Below are positions 1,931-21,408 of a stretch of 64,000 nucleotides of DNA, one piece after another. The stretch covers positions 1 to 64,000 of the forward strand of contig NZ_JAAGOA010000011.1 in assembly GCF_010550675.1 (NCBI RefSeq). Reading direction: 5' to 3'. Every line of letters starts with the position of its first letter. Position 1 is the stretch's first letter. Origin of the DNA: Phytoactinopolyspora halotolerans (GTDB lineage Bacteria; Actinomycetota; Actinomycetes; Jiangellales; Jiangellaceae). Under the pieces are notes generated by a model, which was given only the letters and a program-made list of their open reading frames with translations, ran no database searches and was not told the DNA's origin. A program made the translations under genes and the position numbers.

Positions 1931-4132
1931 CTAGCCCTGCTTGAACAGAAGCGGAGCGAAGTCGACGAGGTTCTTCTGCCACACATCCCAGCCGTGCGGG
2001 CCAGGAGTCGGACCGTCGAACTCGTACTCGATTCCGAGTTGGTCCATGGTCTCCAGCGAGGTCATGAACCCCGGATACACGAAGTCCGTGACATCGCCGA
2101 CGTACAGCTTCAACAGGGTGGTGCCGTCGTTGATGGCGTCCGCGTCGACCCCTTCAGCGCTGCCGAAACCGGCTGAGAACACTCCGATGTACGCGAACTC
2201 GCCTGGATGCGACTTGAGCACGCCGTACGTCTGTCCACCGCCCATCGAGAGTCCGGCAAGGGCTCGCCGCGACGGGTCGTCGGAGACGTTGTAGTTCTCG
2301 TGTGTCGCCGGAACGATGTTGTCGAGTAGCTCGGCGGTGAAATTCGAGACGTTGCCGTTGCTCATCACGACCACCATCGGCTCGAGGTTTCCATCGAGGA
2401 AGTGGTTGTCGAGGATCTGCTTGGCACGTCCCATCTCGATCCAATCGGTGTAGTTCTGGCCGCCGCCGTGCTGCAGGAAGAAGACCGGGTAGGGCTCGTC
2501 GCGTCCGGGATCGTAGCCGGGCGGGGTCCACACGTAGGAGGTGCGCTCCCCGCCGGCGACGGAGCTGTGATAGGTCATCTCGTGCACGTCGCCACCCTGA
2601 CCGTCGGGAACGTCGGTGAGCATGCGCGCCGATTCGCCAGGTACGAGGAAGGTGCTCCATGTCGGCTCCGACGTGATGCTCGTCGGATTCCCCGTGTCCT
2701 TGACCGCTTGCATGTCAACGATGAGGCGGTAGTGGTAGAAACCCGGTTCGAGCGGGCCCATGGTGCCACGCCACCGGTCACCCGCGCGGGACAACTCCAC
2801 GCGAGTCCAGCTTCCTCCCGGCGCCCAGTTGCCCCATACGGTGACGTGCTCGGCGTCGGCGAACTCGGTAGTGGTCTCGAATGTGACGAACGTGTTGCCT
2901 TCGGCGTCCTCGCTGAGCCACGGTGTCGGGGTCGTGCCGGCCGGGGGAGTGGTGAACTCACTGTCCAGCGGCAGATGACCGGGGCTGGGGCCGTGGTCCG
3001 GCACCTCCCGGAACAGCCGTTGTGCGAAGTCGATCAGGTTCTCCTGCCACGCATCCCAGTTGTGACCGGCGTCCGGGTTGACCCCATCGAACTCGTACTC
3101 GACCCCGGCCTCGTCGAGCTCGTTCATGAGCCGGTAGTTCGCGTTGTACGCGAGATCGGTGACGTTGCCGGTGTACAGGCGGAGCAGTGTGGTGCCCTGG
3201 TTGATCGCGTTAGCGTTAACATCGCTGGCGTCGCCGAAGCCCGCGAACGAGCCCACGTAGGCGAACCTGCCAGGGCGATCGAAGAGGGTGCTCAGGGTCT
3301 GGTAGCCACCCATGGACAAGCCGGCGAGCGCCTGCTGGGAAGGCTTGTGAGAGATGTTGTACTCGTGGCGGGCCGCCCGCATGATGTTCTGGAACAGTTC
3401 CTTCTGGAAATCCTGCACGTTGCCGTTGCCCATCACCACGACCATGGGCTCCATGTCACCGCGGATCGTGAGATTGTCGAAGATCTGCTGTGCTCGCCCG
3501 ACCTCGACCCAGTCGCGGTAGCTTTGACCACCGCCGTGCTGCAGATAGAGCACCGGGTAGGGCTCCTTGCGGGCGGGATCGTAACCCGGCGGAGTCCACA
3601 CCAATGCGGACCGCGTCTCGCGCGCGCCCTTGCTCCGGTAGGTCATGGTCTCGACTGTGCCGCCTTGGCCGTCCGGAACGTCGGCCAGAAGCTCCGCGGA
3701 GTCACCGGCGATCAAGAATGTGCTCCACTCCGGCTCGGACTCCACGGTCGTGGGGTTGGTCGGATCCTTGAAGGTCTTCGTGTCGTCTGCTGTGATCTGG
3801 TAGTAGTACAGGCCTGGCTCGAGCGGGCCGATCACCGCCGTCCACGCGCCACCCCGTCGCGCGAGCCCCAGTTCCGCCCAGTTGGATCCCGGGCCGAAAT
3901 TCCCCTCGGCGACGACCTGCGATGCGTCTCCGACAGTGTCCTGGACATAATCCGCGGGAACGCTGAATGTCGCGAAGCCGTCATCACTCACGCTGAGCCA
4001 TGGCGTATCCGCCGCAGCCGGCCGCACTGCGATCAAGGTCGCGGCGATCACCAAGGCGGTGACGAAGAACGCTGCGACGCGCCGGTGCACAGCCGGCCGG
4101 CGTAATGGTCTTTGACGAGATGCGATCACCAT
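1931..4132 (-). CDS. Secreted tandem-duplicated CE1-type esterase
   Basis: A 733-aa exported protein made of two similar halves. Each half has an N-terminal E-set/CBM48-like beta module (WLSVSDDG...FATFSVPADY; WLSEDAEGN...FVTFETTTEF) and an esterase-D/feruloyl-esterase type alpha/beta hydrolase. Both halves keep the nucleophile elbow (GLSMGGYQT and GLSMGGGQT) and a histidine near the end (GHNWDAWQ and PHGWDVWQ), so both are probably active. A Sec signal (VAAFFVTALVIAATLIAVRPAAA) is at the start. ATG 4132 was chosen over the in-frame codon at 4174 because GGAGA sits 8-9 bases before it, inside the longer version. The role is probably deacylation of plant polysaccharide (acetyl or feruloyl esters). 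It lies between the LacI gene and the transporter genes. Confidence 0.85.
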   Translation of the reverse strand: MVIASRQRPLRRPAVHRRVAAFFVTALVIAATLIAVRPAAADTPWLSVSDDGFATFSVPADYVQDTVGDASQVVAEGNFGPGSNWAELGLARRGGAWTAVIGPLEPGLYYYQITADDTKTFKDPTNPTTVESEPEWSTFLIAGDSAELLADVPDGQGGTVETMTYRSKGARETRSALVWTPPGYDPARKEPYPVLYLQHGGGQSYRDWVEVGRAQQIFDNLTIRGDMEPMVVVMGNGNVQDFQKELFQNIMRAARHEYNISHKPSQQALAGLSMGGYQTLSTLFDRPGRFAYVGSFAGFGDASDVNANAINQGTTLLRLYTGNVTDLAYNANYRLMNELDEAGVEYEFDGVNPDAGHNWDAWQENLIDFAQRLFREVPDHGPSPGHLPLDSEFTTPPAGTTPTPWLSEDAEGNTFVTFETTTEFADAEHVTVWGNWAPGGSWTRVELSRAGDRWRGTMGPLEPGFYHYRLIVDMQAVKDTGNPTSITSEPTWSTFLVPGESARMLTDVPDGQGGDVHEMTYHSSVAGGERTSYVWTPPGYDPGRDEPYPVFFLQHGGGQNYTDWIEMGRAKQILDNHFLDGNLEPMVVVMSNGNVSNFTAELLDNIVPATHENYNVSDDPSRRALAGLSMGGGQTYGVLKSHPGEFAYIGVFSAGFGSAEGVDADAINDGTTLLKLYVGDVTDFVYPGFMTSLETMDQLGIEYEFDGPTPGPHGWDVWQKNLVDFAPLLFKQG

Positions 4133-4332
4133 TGACTTCTCTCCTTCTTCGTCCACCGTCGCGCGGCTGAACACGCCGTGCGCGGTGGGTACTTCTCGCC
4201 GAGAGAACAGTTCCCGGGCGAGCGGAACCGATCGGAGTGCCCGCGATGTTCAGGTGGTCCTTTCCATATCGGCTATGCAGGTCGTGTCGCGGGCGCGGTC
4301 GAGCTTTGGTGCGGCATTGCGGTTGTATTGCG

Positions 4333-5343
4333 TTACCTGCCCGGAGGTGCGGTTGAATCGCGAACCACGAGCTCGGTTGGAACGAATCGCTGCAGCGGTT
4401 GCTCGGCGGATCCGGCGACCAGCTCCTGTAGCAAGCGGGCCGCCTCGTATCCAAGTTGGTGCATGGATTGATCGATGGTGGTCAACGCCGGTTGTGCCAG
4501 CGCTGACTCCGGGATGTTGTCGAAGCCGACGACCGAGAGGTCGCCGGGGACGTCAAGGCCGAGGTCCCCGGCGACCTCGAGGACCTTCAACGCCATTCCG
4601 TCGCTTGCCGTGAAGATCGCCGTGGGACGGTCGTCCGAGTCGAGGAGCGTACGGGCTGGTGCAATCGCCGTCTCGGGGTGGAAGTCGCCTCTGCCGATGA
4701 GTGTCGGGTCGACGGTCAGACCCGCGTCGGCGAGGGCCGCGCGATAGCCTTCCTCGCGTGCCCAGGCCGCTGCGAGGCTCGATCGGCCGCCGATGAAGCC
4801 GATGCGGCGATGTCCGAGGGTCAGCAAGTGATTCACCGCGGTGACCGCGCCGGCGAGGTTGTCGGCGGCGACCGACGGCATGGTCGAATCACGTACTGGG
4901 TCGATGGCGACGACAGGCGTCCTGCTCTTGACCTCGGTCCACGGCGTGACCACGATGCACCCGTCGGTGAGTGTCCCCGACAAGCGGGTGAGATTCCGCT
5001 GTTCCCAGCCATGTGAGCGTGTTCCGTATGTGTCGCTGTTGGCGTAGACGATCAAGTCCAGGCCGGTACCGCTGAGCGCCTCCATGACGCCCTTGAGGAC
5101 CTCGGCGGTATACGACTCGAAACTGTGGGTGACCAGCCCGAAGACGTTGGTACGGTTCCGCCGAAGGCTCGTCGCGACCAGGCTCGACTCGTAGCCCAGC
5201 TCCTCGATGGCGGCGCGGACCTGCTCCACCGTGCGGGAGCTGACGCCGTAGTGACCGTTAACAACCCGGGACACGGTGGCGATGGAGACGCCGGCCGATC
5301 GTGCGACGTCGCGCACCGTCACCGGACCTCGGACTTCGGTCAT
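4333..5343 (-). CDS. LacI-family transcriptional regulator (cluster A)
   Basis: A 336-aa repressor. The N-terminal LacI helix-turn-helix and hinge read 'VTVRDVARSAGVSIATVSRVVNGHYGVSSRTVEQVRAAIEELGYESS'. A periplasmic-binding-protein-like sensor domain follows, with 'GLVTHSFESYTAEVLKGV', 'GHRRIGFIGG' and 'SVVGFDNIPESALAQPALTTIDQ'. It is the first gene upstream of the esterase, binding protein and permease genes on the same strand, with a 200-base gap. It probably controls those genes and itself. Operator-like palindromes lie directly upstream of its start. The inducer is unknown. Confidence 0.92.
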   Translation of the reverse strand: MTEVRGPVTVRDVARSAGVSIATVSRVVNGHYGVSSRTVEQVRAAIEELGYESSLVATSLRRNRTNVFGLVTHSFESYTAEVLKGVMEALSGTGLDLIVYANSDTYGTRSHGWEQRNLTRLSGTLTDGCIVVTPWTEVKSRTPVVAIDPVRDSTMPSVAADNLAGAVTAVNHLLTLGHRRIGFIGGRSSLAAAWAREEGYRAALADAGLTVDPTLIGRGDFHPETAIAPARTLLDSDDRPTAIFTASDGMALKVLEVAGDLGLDVPGDLSVVGFDNIPESALAQPALTTIDQSMHQLGYEAARLLQELVAGSAEQPLQRFVPTELVVRDSTAPPGR

Positions 5344-5521: not shown

Positions 5522-7165
5522 CTATCCGAGGGAGGCTTCGTAGGCCTCCTGGTGGAGCTCGAGGTAGCGTTCCAGGCCTAGTCCGTCGAGGTTCTGCAGG
5601 TAGCTCTCCCACTCTGCGTCGCTGTCGATGTCGTTGTCTCCGGTGATGAACTGCAGACTGGACTGGTTGACGAAGTCTTCGATATTCGTCTGCAAAGTGG
5701 CCAGTTCGCTGCTGACGTCAGGATCGAACCAGACGTTCCAGTACGGGTAGACCTGGTCCTCTGCCTCCTTGCCCTCGTACAGCTTCGTGGCCTCGAAGAG
5801 GCGACGTTCGAAACCGTCAGCCGTGTACACGTCCGTGTCGGCAACCTGCGAGTTGCGGAATTCCTCCGTGTCGTTGTACTGAGCCATCGGCCCCCATCCA
5901 CCGGCTTCATTCGGCTCATCCGGATCCGGCGGAATGTACCTGAACGTCGGCTCCAGGCTTTCGTCGAGAGCGACCTCGCCCTCGGCTGCCGGCTCCCAGC
6001 CGATGCCTTCCTGGCCGAACTGCGCGAGAATGTGGCCTTCCTCGCTGAACATGTAGTCGAGGAGCTCGATCGCGGCGACTTGGGTTTCCTCGCTGGCCTC
6101 GCTCGTGATCACGAATGTCGCGCCGGCGATGCTGGGCAGGTTGTACGCCGCGTACTGTGCTCCGTCAGGGCCGGTCAGCGGTGGAACGGGGTCGTAGTCC
6201 TTGTCGCGGCCGTCCTCCTGATTGAGGGTGACGACGAGGCCGGGATGCTGCACGGTGGCGGCGCCGACGATGGGCGCGTCGGCGTTGTCGCCCTTGGCCA
6301 GGAGCGCGTCCCGGTTGTCGGTGAACGCGCCGGGGTCGATGAGGCCCTCGTCGAAGAGGGACGCGAGGTAGCGTAGCCCTTCCCGCCAGCCTTCCTGGCT
6401 AGCCTGCAGCTGTACGGAGCCGTCGTTGAGAGCGAGGGTCGACGAGTAGACGTCGGACGCCTGCGGGTTGTACAGGAATGCGTTCATGAAGTAGGGCAGC
6501 ACGAGGTCCGACGTGCTGCCGGAGAGTGGGATCTCGTCGGCCTTGCCGTTGCCGTTGGGGTCCTCCGTCTTGAACGCCCGCAGCACATCGCGCATCTCTT
6601 CGGTCGTGGTCGGAACGTCCAGGCCGAGCTCGTCGAGCCAGTCGGATCTCATCCACAGCTTGGCGTTGTACGAGCAGTGGTAGCAGTCGTTCCACTGAGG
6701 CAAGCCGTAAATGCTGCCGTCCGGAGCCGTGGCGAGCTGCTCGAGCTCAGGTGTCCGCTCGAACTCCGCGGTGATGTTCGGGGCGTGTTCGGCGATCAGG
6801 TCGTTGAGCGGCACGATCACGCCTTGCTGGCCGAGCCGCTGCAACTCGGTCTTGGAGAACTGATCGACCCATGGGACCAGCATGTAGACATCCGGCAGGT
6901 CGCCGCTGGCGAGGGAGATCTGCCGTTTCTCTCTCGCCGCGTTGCCGTCGTATGTAGTGGTCTCGAACGATAACTCGACGTCTAATGTCTCCTCCACATG
7001 CTGGGTGAACCAGGCATCCTCTAGATCTCCGTTGGCTCCTTCAGGCGCGAATATCGTTATGGTGCCGTCGTCGGACCCTGCGCCGTCGCCGGAGCAGGCG
7101 GCCGGTAGGACGCCGACGAGCAGTGCGGCGAGTGCGACGATCGGTCTTCTGATGGTCGGGATCAT
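5522..7165 (-). CDS. Binding lipoprotein of the cluster B (fucose) ABC importer
   Basis: A 547-aa extracellular solute-binding protein with lipobox LPAAC at the end of a short signal (IVALAALLVGVLPAAC). At about 540 residues it belongs to the long LipO/YtcQ-like binding proteins that pair with LplB/LplC-type permeases, which is what lies upstream. GAGGTG sits 7 bases before the ATG. It is the last gene of the minus-strand run fuconate dehydratase - permease - permease - binding protein. The likely cargo is a fucose-containing oligosaccharide. This is inferred from the adjacent intracellular fucosidase and fuconate dehydratase genes, not from the binding-site sequence. Confidence 0.9.
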   Translation of the reverse strand: MIPTIRRPIVALAALLVGVLPAACSGDGAGSDDGTITIFAPEGANGDLEDAWFTQHVEETLDVELSFETTTYDGNAAREKRQISLASGDLPDVYMLVPWVDQFSKTELQRLGQQGVIVPLNDLIAEHAPNITAEFERTPELEQLATAPDGSIYGLPQWNDCYHCSYNAKLWMRSDWLDELGLDVPTTTEEMRDVLRAFKTEDPNGNGKADEIPLSGSTSDLVLPYFMNAFLYNPQASDVYSSTLALNDGSVQLQASQEGWREGLRYLASLFDEGLIDPGAFTDNRDALLAKGDNADAPIVGAATVQHPGLVVTLNQEDGRDKDYDPVPPLTGPDGAQYAAYNLPSIAGATFVITSEASEETQVAAIELLDYMFSEEGHILAQFGQEGIGWEPAAEGEVALDESLEPTFRYIPPDPDEPNEAGGWGPMAQYNDTEEFRNSQVADTDVYTADGFERRLFEATKLYEGKEAEDQVYPYWNVWFDPDVSSELATLQTNIEDFVNQSSLQFITGDNDIDSDAEWESYLQNLDGLGLERYLELHQEAYEASLG

Positions 7166-7247
7166 GGTGGCACCTCGTTGTTCTGGACGGGACGGGGTGA
7201 GTGGTGAATCAGGGCCTCGCGTGCATGGCGAGAACCGGGTGTCGTGG

Positions 7248-8234
7248 TCAGCCCTTGATCGCGCCCATCGTCGCTCCCTTGGTGAAGTGGCGGGCGATGA
7301 AGGGATAGATGAGCAGGACCGGCACGGTGGAGATCACGATGAGTGAGTATTTAAGGAGGTCAGCCAGCTGGCGTCGTTCCATCATCGTGGTCGTGTCGGT
7401 ACCGCCTTCGGTATTCAGGATCAGGATGTTGCGCAGTACGAGCTGCAGCGGGTAGAGGTCATCGCTCTTGAGGTAGAGCAGCGCATCGAAGTACGAGTTC
7501 CACTGGTAGATCGCGTACATGAGTGCGATGACCGCAAGCATCGGCTTGGCGAGCGGGAGAACGACCGACCACAACACCCGCAGGTCGCTGGCGCCGTCGA
7601 TCTCAGCGGCCTCGAACAGCTCCTCGGGTATCGAATGCCGCAGGTAGGTCCGCGCGATGATCACCTGCCAGACACCTACGGCCTGGGGGAGGATCATCGC
7701 CCATCGGGTGTCGAGCATGCCGAGGGACTGGACCACCAGGTACGTCGGGATGACGCCGCCCGCGAACAGCATGGTGAACACGATGATGCGGGTGATGATG
7801 CCGCCGCCGACGAAGTCCCGGCGGGAGAGTGGGTAGGCGATCGCGACGGTCAGGCTGACGCTGATGAACGTGCCCACGCTCGTGTAGAAGAGCGAGTTCG
7901 CGAAACCGGTGATGACCTGGCTGTTGGACAGCGCCACTTCGTAACCGCGGATGGAGAATTCGACCGGCCACAGCGTGACCCGTCCGGACGAGACCGCGTT
8001 CGGACTGCTGAACGAGCTGGCCAGGATATGCAGTAGCGGGATCAGGACCACCGCGAGGAATGTCGACAGGAGCAGGTAGACCCCGAGCATGAACACGCGG
8101 TCGACGTTGCTCTCCCGGATCCGGCGACCGGACCGCCGGCGCCTCTTCCCCGTCGACACCATCGTCGGAGTGATCGCGCCGGAGCCGCGGGAGTTGCCGG
8201 TGCCGTCGTTCTGCACTGCGGTGGGATCGGCCAT
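7248..8234 (-). CDS. LplC/YtcP-type sugar ABC permease (cluster B)
   Basis: A 328-aa inner-membrane permease. ATG 8234 is preceded by AAAGGAGG. A polar, basic N-terminus (KRRRRSGRRIRESNVDR) leads into the first helix (VFMLGVYLLLSTFLAVVLIPLLHILASSF). The family EAA loop is visible as 'EELFEAAEIDGASDLRVLWSVVLPLAKPMLAVIALM'. It pairs with the permease encoded just upstream and with the lipoprotein encoded downstream. It needs an ATPase that is not encoded here. The family assignment is firm and the substrate is inferred to be a fucosylated oligosaccharide. Confidence 0.93.
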   Translation of the reverse strand: MADPTAVQNDGTGNSRGSGAITPTMVSTGKRRRRSGRRIRESNVDRVFMLGVYLLLSTFLAVVLIPLLHILASSFSSPNAVSSGRVTLWPVEFSIRGYEVALSNSQVITGFANSLFYTSVGTFISVSLTVAIAYPLSRRDFVGGGIITRIIVFTMLFAGGVIPTYLVVQSLGMLDTRWAMILPQAVGVWQVIIARTYLRHSIPEELFEAAEIDGASDLRVLWSVVLPLAKPMLAVIALMYAIYQWNSYFDALLYLKSDDLYPLQLVLRNILILNTEGGTDTTTMMERRQLADLLKYSLIVISTVPVLLIYPFIARHFTKGATMGAIKG

Positions 8235-8263
8235 CACGGGTCCCCTCCTTTCGTCGGTTTCGA

Positions 8264-9253
8264 TCACCACAGGCCGTGGCCGGACACGCGCTTGGCGATG
8301 AAATTGACCGCCACGAGCAGCACGAGATTGATCACCGAGTTGAACAGGCCGACTGCTGCGGCGAGGCTGAAGTCGGCGTTGAGCAGGCCGGTCTTGTAGA
8401 CGTAGGTCGGGATGATCTCCGAATGGCTCAGATTCAACGGATTCTGGAGCAGGAACGCCTTCTCGAACCCGATGGCCATGATGTTGCCGACCCCGAGAAT
8501 CAACAGGATGGCGGCCGTGGGCATGATGCCCGGGAGATCGACGTGGATGATCTTCTGTATCCGGGAGGCTCCGTCCACCTTGGCGGCTTCGTACAGTGAG
8601 GGATCGATCGCTGCGAGAGCGGCCATGTAGATCACTGCCGAATAGCCGGCGGTCTGCCAGACATCGCTCCATACGTAGATGTGCCGGAAGTAGTCCGGAT
8701 TGCCGAGGAAGTCGATCGATCCGATGCCGAACAGGCCGAGCGCGTCACTGGCGAGTCCGATGCGCGGGGAGAGGAAGAGGATCGTCATCGACACGACGAT
8801 CACGGTCGAGATGAAGTACGGCGCGAACGTCACCATCTGAACCGTCCGCTTGAACAGTCTGTGCCGTACCTCGTTGAGCGCGAGGGCCAAGATGATCGGG
8901 ATCGGGAAGGCCGCGATGACGACGTATGCCGACAGGATGAAGGTGTTGCGGACGATCCTCCAGAACGCCGGGTTCTCGACGAACGATTGGAAGTTGTCCA
9001 GGCCGACCCAGGGGCTGCCCCATATCCCGTCCACGACGTTGTAGTCCTTGAACGCGATGACGCCGTTCACCATCGGCACGTACTTGAAGATGAGGAAGTA
9101 CACGAGGGGCGCGAGGGCGAGCAGGTACAGCTGCCAATGCCGACGGATCTTGCGTATCGCCACACTCCGGCTTGATCGGTGTCCATTCGGCCGCAGTGGC
9201 TCAGACGTGGTCCCCACGTCGATGCGCGGGGTCACGGGTGCACCGGACGCCAT
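8264..9253 (-). CDS. LplB-type sugar ABC permease (cluster B)
   Basis: A 329-aa partner permease. The chosen start at 9253 has AGGAGGTG 6-7 bases upstream. The first helix is 'WQLYLLALAPLVYFLIFKYVPMVNGVIAF', followed by 'WVGLDNFQSFVENPAFWRIVRNTF', typical of LplB. The EAA-type loop is 'PSLYEAAKVDGASRIQKIIHVDLPGIMPTAAILLIL'. It ends 29 bases before the start of the second permease gene. It lies downstream of fuconate dehydratase in the same operon. Confidence 0.93.
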   Translation of the reverse strand: MASGAPVTPRIDVGTTSEPLRPNGHRSSRSVAIRKIRRHWQLYLLALAPLVYFLIFKYVPMVNGVIAFKDYNVVDGIWGSPWVGLDNFQSFVENPAFWRIVRNTFILSAYVVIAAFPIPIILALALNEVRHRLFKRTVQMVTFAPYFISTVIVVSMTILFLSPRIGLASDALGLFGIGSIDFLGNPDYFRHIYVWSDVWQTAGYSAVIYMAALAAIDPSLYEAAKVDGASRIQKIIHVDLPGIMPTAAILLILGVGNIMAIGFEKAFLLQNPLNLSHSEIIPTYVYKTGLLNADFSLAAAVGLFNSVINLVLLVAVNFIAKRVSGHGLW

Positions 9254-9326
9254 TGAAGGCACCTCCTGGAGTTTCCTCAGTGCCGCTGCGGCATGGCGAA
9301 CCGATGCCTGGCGGCGGTCCTGCGGG

Positions 9327-10619
9327 TCATCGGTGATCACCGCGCCAGCGGTACGCGTCGACGGATTCGGGTTTCATCTGCGCACCGATTCCAGGTCCAG
9401 TGGGGGCGAGGTACCTGCCATCGCGGATCATGACCGGCTGCACGAAGTGTTCGTGCAGGTGATCGATGTACTCGATGGCCCGTCCGTCGGTGCTGCCGCT
9501 GACCGCGACATAGTCGAACATGGCCAGGTGCTGCACCATCTCGCACAGGCCGACACCGCCGGCGTGTGGGCATATGGGCACCCCGTACTTGGCGGCGAGC
9601 AGTATGATCGCCACGTTCTCGGTGACGCCGGCCACTCGGCATGCGTCCAACTGGACGACGTCGAGGGCTCCTGCCTGCAGGAACTGCTTGAACATGACCT
9701 GGTTGTGGATGTGTTCGCCGGCGGCCACCTTGATGGGTGCCACCGCGTTCCGGATCGTCGCGTGGCCGAGCACGTCGTCCGGCGACGTGGGCTCCTCGAT
9801 CCAGTAGGGCTCGAAGCGTGCCAACGGTTGGAGCCATTCGATCGCCTGCTGGACGCCCCAAGCCTGGTTCGCATCGATGGCGATCCGGGCGTCCGGCCCG
9901 AGTGTCTCGCGGGCCAGCCTCAACCGTCGTATGTCGGTGTCGAGGTCGGCGCCGACCTTGAGCTTGATGTGGCCGAATCCGTCCGAGACGGCCTCCTTCG
10001 AGAGCCGGACGAGCTTGTCGTCGGTGTAGCCCAGCCAGCCAGGCGTGGTCGTGTAGGCCGGATAACCCCGGGCGAGCAGGTCAGCCTGGCGGGCGGTGCG
10101 ACCGGGCAGCGCGCGTTCCAGGATCTGCCGCGCCTCGGCGGGCGTCAGCGCATCCTCGAGGTATCGGAAGTCCACGAGGTCGACCAGTTGCTGTGGAGAC
10201 ATCTCGGCCAGCAAGCGCCACACCGGCTTGCCTTCGATACGGCCGAACAGGTCCCAGGTCGCGTTGACGATCGCGGCGGCCGCCATGTGGATGACACCCT
10301 TGTTCGGGCCCAGCCAGCGCAGCTGGCTGTCACCGGTGAGCATCCGGGAGAACCCGCCCAAATCAGAGAGCACGTCCGCCACACGTAGCCCGACGATCAG
10401 TGGTGCGAGTGCCTCGATGGCGGCCACCTGGGCGTCGTTGCCGCGGCCCACGGTGAAAGCGAGCCCGAAACCCTGCCGGTCGGCGCTGGTCCGGATCACC
10501 ACGTAAGCCGCCGAGTAGTCCGGCTCCGGGTTCATCGCGTCCGAGCCGTCCAGGTCGCGTGACGTGGGAAAGCGGACATCGACCGCGTCGAGTGCACTGA
10601 TGACCTCAGCCACGATCAC
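9327..10619 (-). CDS. L-fuconate dehydratase (enolase superfamily)
   Basis: About 430 aa. It matches the fuconate dehydratase/ENOSF1 group along its whole length: 'DVRFPTS...[20 protein letters not shown]', '[15 protein letters not shown]', '[14 protein letters not shown]', '[11 protein letters not shown]' (K-x-K base), 'IDANQAWG' and '[15 protein letters not shown]' (metal ligands), 'AGEHIHNQ', and '[27 protein letters not shown]'. It dehydrates L-fuconate to 2-keto-3-deoxy-L-fuconate (EC 4.2.1.68) in the non-phosphorylating fucose pathway. The start is either GTG 10619 or GTG 10613. The latter is better spaced from GAGGAG. It is the first gene of the transporter operon. The other pathway enzymes are not in the window. 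Confidence 0.92.
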
Positions 10620-10938
10620 ACGCTCCTCGTAGGTCTGGACCCTGGTCGCCGCTGGTGCTGTGCCACGGTTCAGGTCTCCGATCTGTCATGCGGAGGACAT
10701 CCCAAAGTAATGGGATGTATTTATAATGCTAGATCGCGGTCGTGTCTATACCTCGGAGGCAAGAACGCCACTGACCTGCATATATCGCCCATGATTGACG
10801 TTTGTATGTGGGGACTCAAGGACGTCGATTCTTCAAGACATGGGATGACGCCGGTCAGGCTTGCCGTATCGGATCGCCGGCCGGATGTGCTCCCGTTCTG
10901 TGCTGTTCCGCGCGAGGCGGCGATCTGAGTGCGTCGCT
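10620..10938. other. Intergenic region with the fuconate dehydratase promoter
   Basis: 319 bases separate the fucosidase stop from the dehydratase start. The part nearest the dehydratase holds its promoter and operator (10698-10748). The remaining ~190 bases, 10749-10938, contain no convincing gene or hairpin. Confidence 0.6.
10698..10748 (-). promoter_or_regulatory. Promoter and operator of the fuconate dehydratase-transporter operon
   Basis: On the minus strand, -35 TAGACA (10748-10743), a 17-base spacer and -10 TATAAA (10725-10720) are followed after one base by an inverted repeat, ACATCCC-N8-GGGATGT (10718-10697). The repeat covers the expected transcription start. The block TATAAA-N-ACATCCCAT recurs at the fucosidase promoter, and a related site lies before the GntR gene. 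This points to the FCD GntR protein as the repressor. Confidence 0.72.
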
Positions 10939-12390
10939 TCAGGCCAGGTCGATGGCCAGGCAGTTGAGGTCACCGGCCGGACCGGCGTCTGGTAGCCGGA
11001 CATGCAGGCCTTGCGCGGACTGTTCCCACGGCACCGGGTCGGAGCCGAGGAGGCGAACCGATCGGACGTCGTCGGACGAGGTGAAGGAGCGGATCAAGGC
11101 CGAGCCGTCGGACGGCCAGCGCATCAGGAAGGCGTAGACGGTGCGGTCGCGCTGAGTGAACCGAACGTCCCGCGCCGTCCAGTCGACCCGGTCTTCTCTG
11201 AAGTGGTCGATGACCACACTGCTGGGCCCTTCTCCGAAGACCCGGAACGGCCGGGTGCCGAAGATGCCCTCCCCGCAGATCGCGACCCATCGTGCCATCT
11301 CGTCGAGCAGGTAACGGCATTCGTCGTCGATCGAGCCATCCGGACGCTGCGGGATGTTCAGCAACAGATTTCCGTTCTTGGCGACGATGTCGACGAGGAT
11401 CTCCAGCACGTGCCCAGGGCGCTTGTACGTGGCACGCACGTCATAGAACCATCCGCCGACACAGGTATCGGTCTGCCACGGCTCCGGGCGGATGTCCGGC
11501 TCCTGGCTGCGCTCGATGTCCAGCACCCCCACGCGCGCCACCTGCGGTTCGCGCATCTTCTGGGTGTACACCGCATGGTTGACGCCGCCATGCGCGCGGG
11601 CACTCGTGTTGTACAGGTGAGCCACCGCCCGCGCTCCGGCCGCGCGGCCGTCGCTGTCGAAAGGTAAGGCGCCGTCGGTGTAGAGGAGATCCGGCTGGAA
11701 CGTGTCGATCATCTCGGTGACCAGCTCGAGCCAGCGGCTGTGCCACTGCGGATCCGTCGTGTACCACGGTTCCGGGACACCACGACGAGAATCGGCTACG
11801 TGCTCGTGGTTGGGGAGGTAGAAGTCGAGGTGATCGGGGTCGGTCCCGTCGTACGGCACGCCCGCGTACGGGCCGGCGCTATCGGCGCCCTTGTTCACCG
11901 CCCACCACGTGAACGTGGCGCCGAGGTGTTCGCTCAGTCCGATCGGAAGGCCTCGCGCGACGGCGGCTTGTCGCCAGGCCGCGACGATGTCGAGGCCTGG
12001 CCCGACGTTGACCGAGTTCCAGCGGTGCAGCGCCGAACCATAGTTGAGGAAGTTGTCATGATGGACCGCTTGAGCGACGAAGTACTTCGCGCCGGCCGCG
12101 ACGTAGCGATCCATCAGTTCCTCGGGGTCGAAGCGCTCCGCCTTCCACAAGGCCACCAGGTCCTTGTAACCGAATCGCGAGGGATGCCCGTAGGTGCGTA
12201 GGTGGTAGTTGTACTGGTCGGTGCCCTCGCGGTACATGTTGCGGGCGTACCAATCGCCGAAACGGGGGACCGACTGCGGGCCCCAGTGCGACCAGATGCC
12301 GAGTTTTGCGTCGCGGAACCAGTCCGGTACCTCGAAGCCGGCCAGCGAATCGACGGTGGGCTCGAACGGTGCTGTGCGTGGCGAAGTCAC
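10939..12390 (-). CDS. Alpha-L-fucosidase, GH29, intracellular
   Basis: GH29 fucosidase of 483 aa from GTG 12390. Landmarks are 'WFRDAKLGIWSHWGPQSVP', 'DWYARNMY', 'AQAVHHDNF' (about residue 110) and 'FQPDLLYTDG', whose Asp (about 239) sits at the family nucleophile position. There is no signal peptide, so it probably acts in the cytoplasm on imported fucosides. GTG 12390 follows GGAGGA with 9-base spacing. An in-frame ATG at 12453 lacks an SD but lies 8 bases from the -10 box and could start a leaderless message of 504 codons. It has its own operator-bearing promoter upstream of the dehydratase-transporter operon. Confidence 0.9.
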   Translation of the reverse strand: MTSPRTAPFEPTVDSLAGFEVPDWFRDAKLGIWSHWGPQSVPRFGDWYARNMYREGTDQYNYHLRTYGHPSRFGYKDLVALWKAERFDPEELMDRYVAAGAKYFVAQAVHHDNFLNYGSALHRWNSVNVGPGLDIVAAWRQAAVARGLPIGLSEHLGATFTWWAVNKGADSAGPYAGVPYDGTDPDHLDFYLPNHEHVADSRRGVPEPWYTTDPQWHSRWLELVTEMIDTFQPDLLYTDGALPFDSDGRAAGARAVAHLYNTSARAHGGVNHAVYTQKMREPQVARVGVLDIERSQEPDIRPEPWQTDTCVGGWFYDVRATYKRPGHVLEILVDIVAKNGNLLLNIPQRPDGSIDDECRYLLDEMARWVAICGEGIFGTRPFRVFGEGPSSVVIDHFREDRVDWTARDVRFTQRDRTVYAFLMRWPSDGSALIRSFTSSDDVRSVRLLGSDPVPWEQSAQGLHVRLPDAGPAGDLNCLAIDLA

Positions 12391-12450
12391 GGGCGGAGAT
12401 CCTCCGATACGTCGGGAAGCTGCGGACGTCGGCTGCCGGCGCGTGCCGGT

Positions 12451-12490
12451 CATGGGATGTCTTTATACGTGGCGGTGGTGACCTTGTCCA
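12451..12490 (-). promoter_or_regulatory. Fucosidase promoter with GntR operator half
   Basis: Minus-strand -35 TGGACA (12490-12485), an exact 17-base spacer and -10 TATAAA (12467-12462) are followed after one base by ACATCCCAT (12460-12452). Layout and operator offset are the same as at the fuconate dehydratase promoter, but the second half-site is missing. The predicted transcription start is within 1-2 bases of the ATG at 12453. Confidence 0.7.
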
Positions 12491-12569
12491 GGGATGTGAT
12501 GCAGCTCGTCAAGTATGCGCATGTAAAAGCATGCTCGAGCGGAGAGGTGTAGTGGGCGGTGTCGACTGA

Positions 12570-12598
12570 TGGTCATAGACATGGGATGGCTTTAGGAT
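12570..12598 (+). promoter_or_regulatory. Autoregulated promoter of the FCD GntR gene
   Basis: Candidate -35 TGGTCA (12570-12575) and -10 TAGGAT (12593-12598) have a 17-base spacer. Between them lies ACATGGGATGGCTTTAG, the reverse of the operator block shared with the two fucose-operon promoters. A repressor bound here would cover the spacer and -10. The site lies 65-93 bases before the regulator start. Confidence 0.55.
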
Positions 12599-12662: not shown

Positions 12663-13337
12663 ATGTCGCTGACCAACAAGGCCATCGCGCGAATCCGTGA
12701 GCTCATCCAGTCCGGCGAGCTCGAACCCGGATCGAAACTGCCGCCCGAGCAGGAGCTGGCGGCTGAGCTCGGTTTGGGGCGCAACCTGCTGCGCGAGGCC
12801 GTTCAGGCGCTGGTAGCGATGCGCGTCCTGGAGGTGAGACGCGGCAGCGGCACCTACGTGACCAGCCTGGAGCCGAAGGAGTTGCTGCATGGCGTCGGCG
12901 GGGCTGTGGAGCTTCTCCGAGGGGACACGCTCCTCGAGGTCATCGAGGTGCGCCGCCTGTTCGAGCCGGTCGCCACCGCACTCGCAGCCACCCGTATCTC
13001 GCAGCAGCAGCTGGCCTCGGTCAAGGAACACCTCGATGCCATGCGTGCCGCGGCAGACGATGTCGAGTTACTCAACCGCCATGACGCGGCCTTCCATCGA
13101 GAAGTGATCGCGGCCACCGGAAACGAGACCCTGTCCGCCGTGCTGGAGGGTATCGCCGGAAGGACGGTGCGCGCCCGGGTCTGGCGAGGGCTGGTCGATG
13201 ATCGCGCCGCCGGACGGACACTGGCTGAGCATGAGGCGATTTACAACGCGCTCGCCGCCGGTGATGCCTTCCTGGCCCAATCCGCGGCCATGATGCATGT
13301 CAATACGACCGAGACCTGGCTACGCGCACATCTCTGA
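12663..13337 (+). CDS. FCD (FadR-subfamily) GntR regulator of the fucose genes
   Basis: 224 aa. The N-terminal winged helix reads 'IARIRELIQSGELEPGSKLPPEQELAAELGLGRNLLREAVQALVAMRVLEVRRGSGTYV'. An all-helical FCD effector domain follows, with metal-ligand-type residues in 'EVRRLFEP', 'RHDAAFHREVIAATGN' and 'EHEAIYNAL'. It is divergent from the fucosidase gene. AGGGG precedes the ATG at suitable spacing. Its own promoter and two target promoters share one motif, so it is likely the local repressor. The effector may be a fucose catabolite, which is an inference. Confidence 0.9.
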   Translation: MSLTNKAIARIRELIQSGELEPGSKLPPEQELAAELGLGRNLLREAVQALVAMRVLEVRRGSGTYVTSLEPKELLHGVGGAVELLRGDTLLEVIEVRRLFEPVATALAATRISQQQLASVKEHLDAMRAAADDVELLNRHDAAFHREVIAATGNETLSAVLEGIAGRTVRARVWRGLVDDRAAGRTLAEHEAIYNALAAGDAFLAQSAAMMHVNTTETWLRAHL

Positions 13338-13395: not shown

Positions 13396-13797
13396 TCAGG
13401 TGTCGGCGGGGTGCCCGAGTATCGCGCGCACCTGAAGATGGACATCGGGAAAGTCGCTCTCGAGCGTGTCCCAGACGATCTCGTAGTCGGTCACGTCATA
13501 GACATGGGTGAGGTGGTTCCGCATGTCCGACATCAGCGTCCACGGGATCTCGGGGTGCTGTTCACGCAGCGCGACGGGAATACGGGTGGCGGCGTCTCCG
13601 ACCTTGATGATCAATGCCTCACACGCCAGCCGCGGGACCTCGTCCACATCAGCGTCATACCAGTCACGCCCTCGAGCCACGAGCCGGGCAGTCCTGGTCA
13701 TGAACGTATCGATATGGACGAGCGCCTCCAGCACCCGCTCGCCGTGCTCGCGCGCGATCGTAGCTTGCGTCGCGAACGCCAGATCCTGGCCCGTCAC
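13396..13797 (-). CDS. hepT: HepT-like ribonuclease toxin (DUF86)
   Basis: A 133-aa HEPN-domain protein with the diagnostic R-x4-H-x-Y motif (RNHLTHVY). In this family the motif forms the RNase active site, and its Tyr is the target of AMPylation by the cognate antitoxin. The protein is highly helical. The GTG start overlaps the stop of the upstream nucleotidyltransferase gene by four bases (GTGA), so translation is coupled antitoxin first. Type VII-like HepT/MntA toxin-antitoxin systems are established. Activity here is inferred. Confidence 0.88.
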   Translation of the reverse strand: MTGQDLAFATQATIAREHGERVLEALVHIDTFMTRTARLVARGRDWYDADVDEVPRLACEALIIKVGDAATRIPVALREQHPEIPWTLMSDMRNHLTHVYDVTDYEIVWDTLESDFPDVHLQVRAILGHPADT

Positions 13798-14168
13798 ACC
13801 GGCACCGCGTCCCGACGGATACCGGCATGACCCTCGCCGAGCCCGCGTTCAGACACAACATCGACGCGGACGCCGAGCACATCCTCGACTGCGCGCGCGA
13901 AGCCCATCAGCGCGAGCAGACCCTTCCCTCGCGGTACGCGAACCAGCAGATCGAGGTCACTTCCGGGACTATCGTCGCCGCGAGCGGCAGAGCCGAACAC
14001 TCGCGGGTTCTCCATCCCGAAATCCCGCGCCAGCCGACGGACCTCGTCCCTGTGCGCAGCCAGGGCCGAGCTCGGCCTCGGCTTGATCGCCTCGAGAAGC
14101 CGCCGCACCATCGCTCGCGACGGCATGCGAGCGCCCGACTCGTAAGCGGCGATGTTGGGCCGCGCCAC
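13794..14168 (-). CDS. mntA: MntA-like nucleotidyltransferase antitoxin with XRE helix-turn-helix
   Basis: A minimal nucleotidyltransferase with the signature GS-x10-D-x-D (GSAARGDDSPGSDLDLLV). It would AMPylate and neutralise the HepT partner. The frame is open upstream of GTG 14168 to about 14246 and encodes the rest of an XRE-type helix-turn-helix ('ARESAGLTQAELAEVSGVARPNIAAYESG'). The real protein is therefore probably about 150 aa, an HTH-MNT fusion. No ATG, GTG or TTG is in frame in that extension. The only near-start codon is ATT at 14246, directly after an in-frame stop. GTG 14168 has a GAGG 8 bases upstream but would cut the HTH in half. Confidence 0.82.
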   Translation of the reverse strand: MARPNIAAYESGARMPSRAMVRRLLEAIKPRPSSALAAHRDEVRRLARDFGMENPRVFGSAARGDDSPGSDLDLLVRVPRGKGLLALMGFARAVEDVLGVRVDVVSERGLGEGHAGIRRDAVPV

Positions 14169-14244: not shown

Positions 14245-14262
14245 ATGTATCATTTGATACAT
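14245..14262. promoter_or_regulatory. 18-bp palindrome, operator of the HTH-MntA/HepT operon
   Basis: ATGTATCA-TT-TGATACAT has perfect 8-base arms around a 2-base spacer. It lies right at the 5' end of the reading frame of the antitoxin with its XRE helix-turn-helix. A -10-like TATCAA (minus strand 14259-14254) is inside the palindrome, so binding would block transcription. Autorepression by the antitoxin is the natural reading. Confidence 0.65.
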
Positions 14263-20306: not shown

Positions 20307-20376
20307 TACCCGCTTTCGATCCGGCCTCGACGCCTCGAACTGGCTGAATCCGCCGGTGATCAGGGATGATGAGTGT

Positions 20377-21408
20377 ATGTCTAACGCCGCCCGACGCGGC
20401 CGGGTCACCACCCGGGGACCGGCCATCACCGATGTCGCCCGGGTCGCAGGTGTGTCGGTGCCGACCGTGTCGCGCGTGATCACGGGCTCGACGCCGGTGC
20501 GGGCGGAGAAGCGGGAGCGCGTACTGGCGGCGATCGCACAATTGGGCTACCGGCCGAACGGTGCGGCGCGGGCTCTGGTGGCGGGGCATCAGAAGGCGAT
20601 CGCTGTGCTCACCGGGGGGACCACCCGGTACGGGTACGCCAGCACCCTGCAGGGGATCGAAGAGGCCGCGCGGCTGGCCGGATACATCGTGATGATCACG
20701 GTGATCGACTCCGAGGAGCCCGCACTGATCTCGTCCACCGTCGACCTGGCACTGGCCCATCCGGTGGCAGGTGTCATCGTGCTGAAGTTCGACGCGGCGT
20801 CGGTCAAGGCGCTGCACCAGCTGCCGGCCGGGCTGCCCGTGGTGGCCGCATCCGGAGGGCGCAGCAGCGGCGTGCCGCATGCGGTTCTCGACGACACCGC
20901 CGCGGCTTCCCAGGCCACGGAGTACTTGCTGTCCTTGGGGCACCGCACTGTCCACCACGTTGCCATTCCGGCCGCCGGGCGCCGCAGCGGGCGGGTCGTG
21001 GGCTGGCGGAAGGCGCTTGAGCGGGCGGGGGCCGAGGTCCCAGAGGTATTGCAGTCGGACTGGGATCCGATCACCGGCTACCGGCTGGGCCAGCAGCTGG
21101 CGCGGCGGGAACGCGTGACCGCGGTGCTCTGCGGCAACGACGAGATCGCGATGGGCGTGATGCGCGGACTGCACGAGCAGGGACGCCGGGTACCCGACGA
21201 CGTCAGCGTGGTCGGATTCGACGGCCACCCGCTTGCTGCGGTGGCCACGCCCGCACTCACCACGGTCGAGCAGGACTTCGTCGGGCTCGGCCGGCGCGCG
21301 TTCGACCTGCTGGCCGGTTTGGTCAACGACCAGCACCCCCCGCAGAACTCGCTGGCCACACCACGATTGGTGATCCGCGAGTCTAGCGGGCCACCGTCGG
21401 TCAGGTAA
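20377..21408 (+). CDS. LacI-family regulator of cluster C
   Basis: 343 aa. A LacI HTH and hinge ('ITDVARVAGVSVPTVSRVITGSTPVRAEKRERVLAAIAQLGYRPNGAARALV') is followed by a sugar-sensing domain with 'LLSLGHRTVHHVAIP' and 'VSVVGFDGHPLAAVATPALTTVEQD'. ATG 20377 was chosen over the upstream GTG 20356 because of AGGGA spacing and the family's usual N-terminus. It lies between the alpha-galactosidase gene (divergent) and the importer operon (same strand), both of which carry the same operator. It is the probable repressor of both. Confidence 0.92.
   Translation: MSNAARRGRVTTRGPAITDVARVAGVSVPTVSRVITGSTPVRAEKRERVLAAIAQLGYRPNGAARALVAGHQKAIAVLTGGTTRYGYASTLQGIEEAARLAGYIVMITVIDSEEPALISSTVDLALAHPVAGVIVLKFDAASVKALHQLPAGLPVVAASGGRSSGVPHAVLDDTAAASQATEYLLSLGHRTVHHVAIPAAGRRSGRVVGWRKALERAGAEVPEVLQSDWDPITGYRLGQQLARRERVTAVLCGNDEIAMGVMRGLHEQGRRVPDDVSVVGFDGHPLAAVATPALTTVEQDFVGLGRRAFDLLAGLVNDQHPPQNSLATPRLVIRESSGPPSVR

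Follow-up and report, generated by a model that had tools for sequence, protein, structure and literature searches.

The closest described systems are the regulators of sugar acids and carboxylates in the FadR/FCD subfamily of GntR proteins, among them DgoR, ExuR, LldR and GlcC. As presented in the consulted parts of PMC4494728, these combine GntR and FCD domains with operators that have a three-nucleotide centre, divergent double sites and extra half-boxes, and the locus described here is alike in these respects. It differs in its outer halves, ACAT/ATGT, and in its asymmetric CNC centre, so that the three-nucleotide centre is kept and the consensus TKGT-N3-ACMA, which the same source parts describe as common without being universal, is not matched. 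HypR of Streptomyces coelicolor resembles the regulator proposed here in being an autoregulated actinobacterial repressor of the FadR type, and its motif CTNTGC(A/C)ATGTCAC contains ATGTC, one half of our site; it differs in serving an L-hydroxyproline regulon, not fucose (PMC6608401, consulted in part). Local control of fucose use is likewise found with FucR of Campylobacter (PMC12566272), of Halomonas and others (PMC5507952) and of Bifidobacterium (PMC4746261). The oxidative L-fuconate route, as at this locus, is described in PMC5507952, and the examined parts of these three papers contain no operator like the one reported below. Among the literature matches listed, which take in few subscription papers, no title or abstract opening describes an actinomycete FCD-GntR fucose regulator or such an operator.

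The window is the whole stretch of DNA that was analysed, 64,000 nucleotides from Phytoactinopolyspora halotolerans. The features of its fucose locus are as follows.

5522 to 9340, minus strand: ABC importer after fucD1, with permeases (8264-9340 and 7248-8240) and binding protein (5522-7165), assigned by Pfam and in the same order in the sister genome G001.
9327 to 10619, minus strand: fucD1, predicted L-fuconate dehydratase (1yey, E 1.3e-183 over residues 6-424).
10697 to 10718, minus strand: site A, predicted operator at the fucD promoter, TACATCCCATTAC directly 3' of the −10 with an extra ACATCCC half-box 11 bp off; all 31 divergent loci have an equivalent site ahead of fucD.
10720 to 10748, minus strand: fucD promoter, −35 TAGACA (10743-10748), 17 bp, −10 TATAAA (10720-10725), read from sequence.
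10837 to 10849, plus strand: site B, fourth copy, GACATGGGATGAC, in the interval from site A to the 3' end of the fucosidase, read from sequence, with a counterpart in G001.
10939 to 12453, minus strand: GH29 alpha-L-fucosidase (Pfam Alpha_L_fucos).
12449 to 12461, minus strand: site C, GACATCCCATGAC, predicted operator at the fucosidase promoter, read from sequence.
12462 to 12490, minus strand: fucosidase promoter, −35 TGGACA (12485-12490), 17 bp, −10 TATAAA (12462-12467), read from sequence.
12578 to 12590, plus strand: site D, GACATGGGATGGC, predicted operator between the gntR −35 TGGTCA (12570-12575) and −10 TAGGAT (12593-12598), read from sequence.
12663 to 13337, plus strand: gntR1, FCD-type GntR regulator of 224 aa (Pfam GntR and FCD above cut-off).

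GntR1 carries an N-terminal GntR helix-turn-helix (70.7 bits, cut-off 27) and a C-terminal FCD domain (86 bits, cut-off 24.3), and belongs to the FadR/FCD subfamily. Its scores against the NCBIfam equivalogs NanR (107.8 of 260 bits), LldR (96.7 of 311), GlcC (71.9 of 301) and ExuR (71.7 of 396) all fall below cut-off. All 56 GntR1 rows, and the paralogue GntR2, share the residues D141, H145, H190 and H212; we take these to be the aspartate and the three histidines of the FCD metal site, which presumably bind metal and help to bind carboxylates in FCD proteins. The fucD1 product is similar over its full length to characterised FucD (1yey, the closest relative of solved structure, and 2hne, E 1.3e-183), and this similarity points to an L-fuconate dehydratase of the enolase superfamily. 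Its frame overlaps the first gene of the sugar ABC importer, with which it is presumed to form one operon. The gntR1 gene is divergent from the fucosidase gene, whose product scores 267.8 bits for Alpha_L_fucos (cut-off 25.2). The mechanical ATG of this fucosidase (12453) falls within the operator, and downstream of it stand GGAGG, 10 nt and then a GTG at 12390, which is the likelier start; a leaderless mRNA beginning at the operator-internal ATG was considered and set aside, as GGAGG-N10-GTG looks better. Just 3' of gntR1 (13396-14168, minus strand) we also see a HepT-like ribonuclease and nucleotidyltransferase pair, a module of toxin-antitoxin type, and upstream of that pair a perfect 8-bp inverted repeat, ATGTATCA/TGATACAT (14245-14262), that may be its operator. 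Elsewhere in the window (1931-4174, minus strand), a protein with two matched esterase domain copies adjoins a LacI-type gene.

A preliminary description of this DNA had placed one block at three promoters, those of fuconate dehydratase, fucosidase and gntR, and both the block and the given −35/−10 spacings can be read directly from the sequence. On the minus strand the dehydratase promoter reads TAGACA-N17-TATAAA-T-ACATCCCAT and the fucosidase promoter TGGACA-N17-TATAAA-G-ACATCCCAT; on the plus strand the reverse block ACATGGGATGG lies between the gntR hexamers, TGGTCA-N17-TAGGAT. Site B was missing from that three-site list; it is probably either what is left of a gntR-type promoter or an operator with an auxiliary role. 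The earlier parse of the block into far-apart halves is not supported by the 87 sites upstream of gntR orthologues, which give GACATGGGATG, with a weaker right side and a single dyad, GACAT-N3-ATGTC. We infer that the bound operator is a 13-bp pseudo-palindrome, GACATCCCATGTC, with the core ACATCNCATGT. As described earlier, the GGGATGT/ACATCCC arm occurs at the dehydratase site only (10697-10718, plus strand, read from the sequence; the repeat search did not list this inverted repeat). The accompanying statement that the fucosidase site has no second half fails because the orthologous sites show one dyad, both halves of which are present in GACATCCCATGAC. At the dehydratase, ACATCCC lies 11 bp from the site, measured between centres, and resembles the weaker extra boxes that are placed 7-12 nt from the site centre in GntR-family sites (PMC4494728, consulted in part). 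Graded repression, also proposed, is unsupported and does not follow from the sequence.

Our main reading, to which we give a probability of about 0.88, is that the block is the operator of GntR1 (12663), which would locally repress the use of L-fucose and fucosides and regulate its own gene, binding the 13-bp site as a dimer. At fucD1 and the fucosidase gene the site begins immediately 3' of the −10, and bound GntR1 should block initiation because the expected transcription start would be covered; at gntR1 the position between −35 and −10 suggests autoregulation. The inducer is probably a pathway acid, L-fuconate or 2-keto-3-deoxy-L-fuconate, that binds to the FCD domain and releases GntR1. 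The repressor reading is based on the sites, their conservation beside the regulator, the domain types and the pathway genes. Against it stand the lack of window enrichment for the 9-mer alone, the orthologues and relatives without a site that are described below, and the ACAT/ATGT outer halves, which differ from the TKGT/ACMA given for the FadR type in the consulted parts of PMC4494728. The departure in the halves does not exclude FadR/FCD membership, because other members listed there depart too.

Specificity within the genome is seen for the extended block only. With one mismatch, ACATCCCAT is not enriched in the window (9 observed, 9.4 expected), and a bare 9-mer or 11-mer was rejected as a motif, there being no window enrichment and, for ACATCCCATGT with one mismatch, 38 genome places against 7 for the control. 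By comparison, CATGGGATGNNTTTA with up to one mismatch occurs at exactly three places in the 7.3 Mb genome, and these are the three promoters. At two mismatches there are 13 further places (reversed control, 2). Around these, to a distance of about 1.5 kb each way, no relatives of FucD, GH29, aldo-keto reductase or lactonase were found, and two of the places have weak ABC-permease matches; because fucose-gene relatives are missing nearby, the GntR1 regulon looks local. Among 393 genomes of the class, three contain the longer TATAAANNCATCCCAT, at four places in all (reversed control, 1): two here, one at fucD of G001 and one in the small, distant genome G206. The search motif first suggested, TATAAA-N-ACATCCCAT, thus proves nearly genus-specific as worded (3 of 393 genomes), and it is the form TATAAA-NN-CATCCCATGT that is portable. 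An exact match is present in 24 of the 31 divergent loci, a lower bound in that the first match per locus was counted (L054 also has the block), and T[GA]GACA stands 17 bp upstream in 18 of these 24. A tested search motif is thereby gained for an actinobacterial fucose regulator.

Conservation upstream of orthologous fucose genes, on which the preliminary description had staked its claim of a local regulon, is what we see, and it supports a local regulon whose operator accompanies the FCD-GntR gene. The search returned 58 loci, 56 of them with close GntR orthologues in actinomycetes; L065 (28% identity) and L066 (43%) were left out. The core, defined as ATGGGATG, ATGGGATC, ATGGGACG or a complement, lies within 400 bp upstream of gntR in 50 of the 56, comprising all 31 loci in which a divergent fucD adjoins gntR and 19 of the remaining 25. 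For ATGGGATG there are 88 matches in the 260 bp upstream of the 56 orthologues, spread over 42 of the loci, against 18 in the remaining 643,808 bases, while permuted 8-mer controls (n=200) gave a mean of 0.4 matches, one reaching 33. Many loci have two facing copies near gntR, whose starts are 19-21 bp apart when both copies are exact, and in some other lineages a distant GH29 gene is divergent from gntR1 with such a site between them (L190). Two of the loci, L029 and L063, come from one strain and have identical upstream sequence. Eight of the 56 orthologues have no site with up to one outer mismatch in 400 bp, and none accompanies the GntR1 relatives in G198 (contig C5), G260 and G127, of which G198 and G260 (L185, L193) have fuller fucose clusters.

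At E 1e-80, GntR1 was found in 14 of 393 genomes and, among the searched genomes of the host's own family, in this one and G001 only. FucD1 shares 73-78% identity with the adjacent FucD of the 31 divergent loci and about 64-68% with the best FucD of other family members; because it is closer to the former, the fucose module may have been acquired. The four sites of G001 are arranged as they are here, with a DUF2200 gene in the place of GH29 between the inner two, and the operon of G001 includes a beta-galactosidase-type gene. The DUF2200 gene (L113:1189-1641, minus strand) sits between duplicated-looking operator pairs, and its mechanical start overlaps an operator.

This layout raises a possibility that is compatible with GntR1 acting at all these sites: A-B and C-D could stem from the duplication of a single divergent fucD/gntR control region, by which the fucosidase would have gained its operator, B being a relic of an older gntR promoter. 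The two pairs have equal orientation and near-equal spacing (130 and 129 bp), the four sites of G001 are spaced 129 and 116 bp around DUF2200 instead of GH29, and global alignments that include the operators exceed shuffles (z 4.8 to 11.6). The window C-D spacer against the A-B spacer of G001 was equalled by 5 of 500 shuffles, this being one of six spacer comparisons, but the window's own A-B and C-D spacers are unlike (377 of 500 shuffles as high). The spacer test has little power, because orthologous spacers of the window and G001 are themselves hardly alike (32 and 486 of 500 shuffles as high). We place this history somewhat below even odds; that a control region was duplicated and carries different cargo in the two genomes is plausible without being proven.

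A second fucose set in the same genome brings another regulator into consideration. FucD2 (C34:55137-56393) is 68% identical to the fucD1 product, and its neighbours are another GH29 gene and genes for an aldo-keto reductase and an amidohydrolase (G000:C34:47000-63000, L165), the last two of which would fit the pathway roles of L-fucose dehydrogenase and lactonase. GntR2, a paralogous GntR of 50% identity, is encoded on a different contig from FucD2 (C63:99094-99753; locus L117, to 99783). The second set is marked by ACATCCGATGT, and GntR2 sites have a palindromic centre, ACATCNGATGT. Of the four genomic occurrences of ACATCSGATGT, one precedes FucD2 by about 74 bp, one coincides with the start of the second GH29 frame and one precedes GntR2 by about 25 bp. 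The fourth, a perfect ACATCCGATGT at C8:59480-59490 (L180:3481), lies in an examined stretch of 7 kb that has no FucD, GH29, reductase or lactonase relative and only a weak ABC-permease match. GntR2 might then control the promoters of our locus, or GntR1 and GntR2 might act indiscriminately and both sets form one regulon. The outer operator halves are common to both regulators, which differ in the central triplet, and the pathways of the two sets overlap.

The comparison of operator centres covered 73 GntR1 regions and 32 GntR2 regions (17 GntR2 and 15 FucD upstream regions, picked from the loci and nearly all from one family; GntR2-like genes of 46-53% identity in L189, L191, L192, L194 and L199 were not in the set). 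With perfect outer halves, the centre is CNC in 37 of 39 GntR1-linked sites and CNG in 16 of 18 GntR2-linked sites. Allowing one outer mismatch, GntR1-linked sites comprise 113 CNC of 124, with 2 CNG, 2 GNC and 7 other, and GntR2-linked sites 23 CNG of 28, with 5 other and 0 CNC. CNC centres occur in 15 genus-level groups. At GntR2-type loci a CNG site with up to one outer mismatch is present in 15 of 15 FucD upstream regions versus 4 of 17 GntR2 genes. The centre class thus tracks the regulator; moreover, family members besides this genome and G001 lack GntR1, and their examined FucD genes carry CNG sites. Both points argue against control by GntR2 or by the two proteins interchangeably, which we regard as unlikely. 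Farther from gntR within the same loci, the centres are mixed when up to one mismatch is allowed (16 CNC, 4 CNG, 5 GNC, 16 other), and perfect matches are CNC in 8 of 9; these may be further targets.

A tree of 35 chosen rows separates GntR1 from GntR2 with full support. FadR position 35, a candidate specificity determinant, is Gln or Pro in 70 of 72 GntR1 rows and Ala, Lys or Ser in 17 of 17 GntR2 rows, with no exception to operator class among rows with readable sites; the correlation proves nothing, because the two clades are one evolutionary contrast. In the residue table, the L064 row is misread (its match begins at residue 5) and L062 is an outlier. Positions 47 (Leu/Ser) and 65 (Arg/Gln) were rejected, the exceptions being L196, with Ser47 and a CCC site, and L201, with Arg65 and CGG sites. 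With GntR1 retained as the regulator of this locus, the patterns suggest, at slightly below even odds, two paralogous fucose repressors that share a genome, have a fucosidase and a fuconate dehydratase apiece, and would be insulated by one base beside the dyad: GntR1 would prefer the asymmetric ACATC-N-CATGT (an ACATC half and an ACATG half) and GntR2 the symmetric ACATC-N-GATGT. A homodimer favouring an asymmetric centre would be unusual. The GntR1/GntR2 pair is also a natural experiment in the avoidance of cross-talk between paralogous repressors.

Assignment of the sites to another neighbourhood regulator, such as the LacI-type proteins encoded at 4333-5343 and 20356-21408, both less than 10 kb from the sites, is very improbable, given that the site accompanies gntR1 in 50 of 56 loci with varying neighbours and that the genes belonging to a close GntR paralogue bear a near-identical site.

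Finally, GntR1 sites with ACATCGCATGT centres occur in L189, L191, L192 and L197 (the Actinoplanes-like family f17). Three of these loci have additional GntR2-like genes of 47-53% identity near FucD or GntR1, and there may be a third regulator type.
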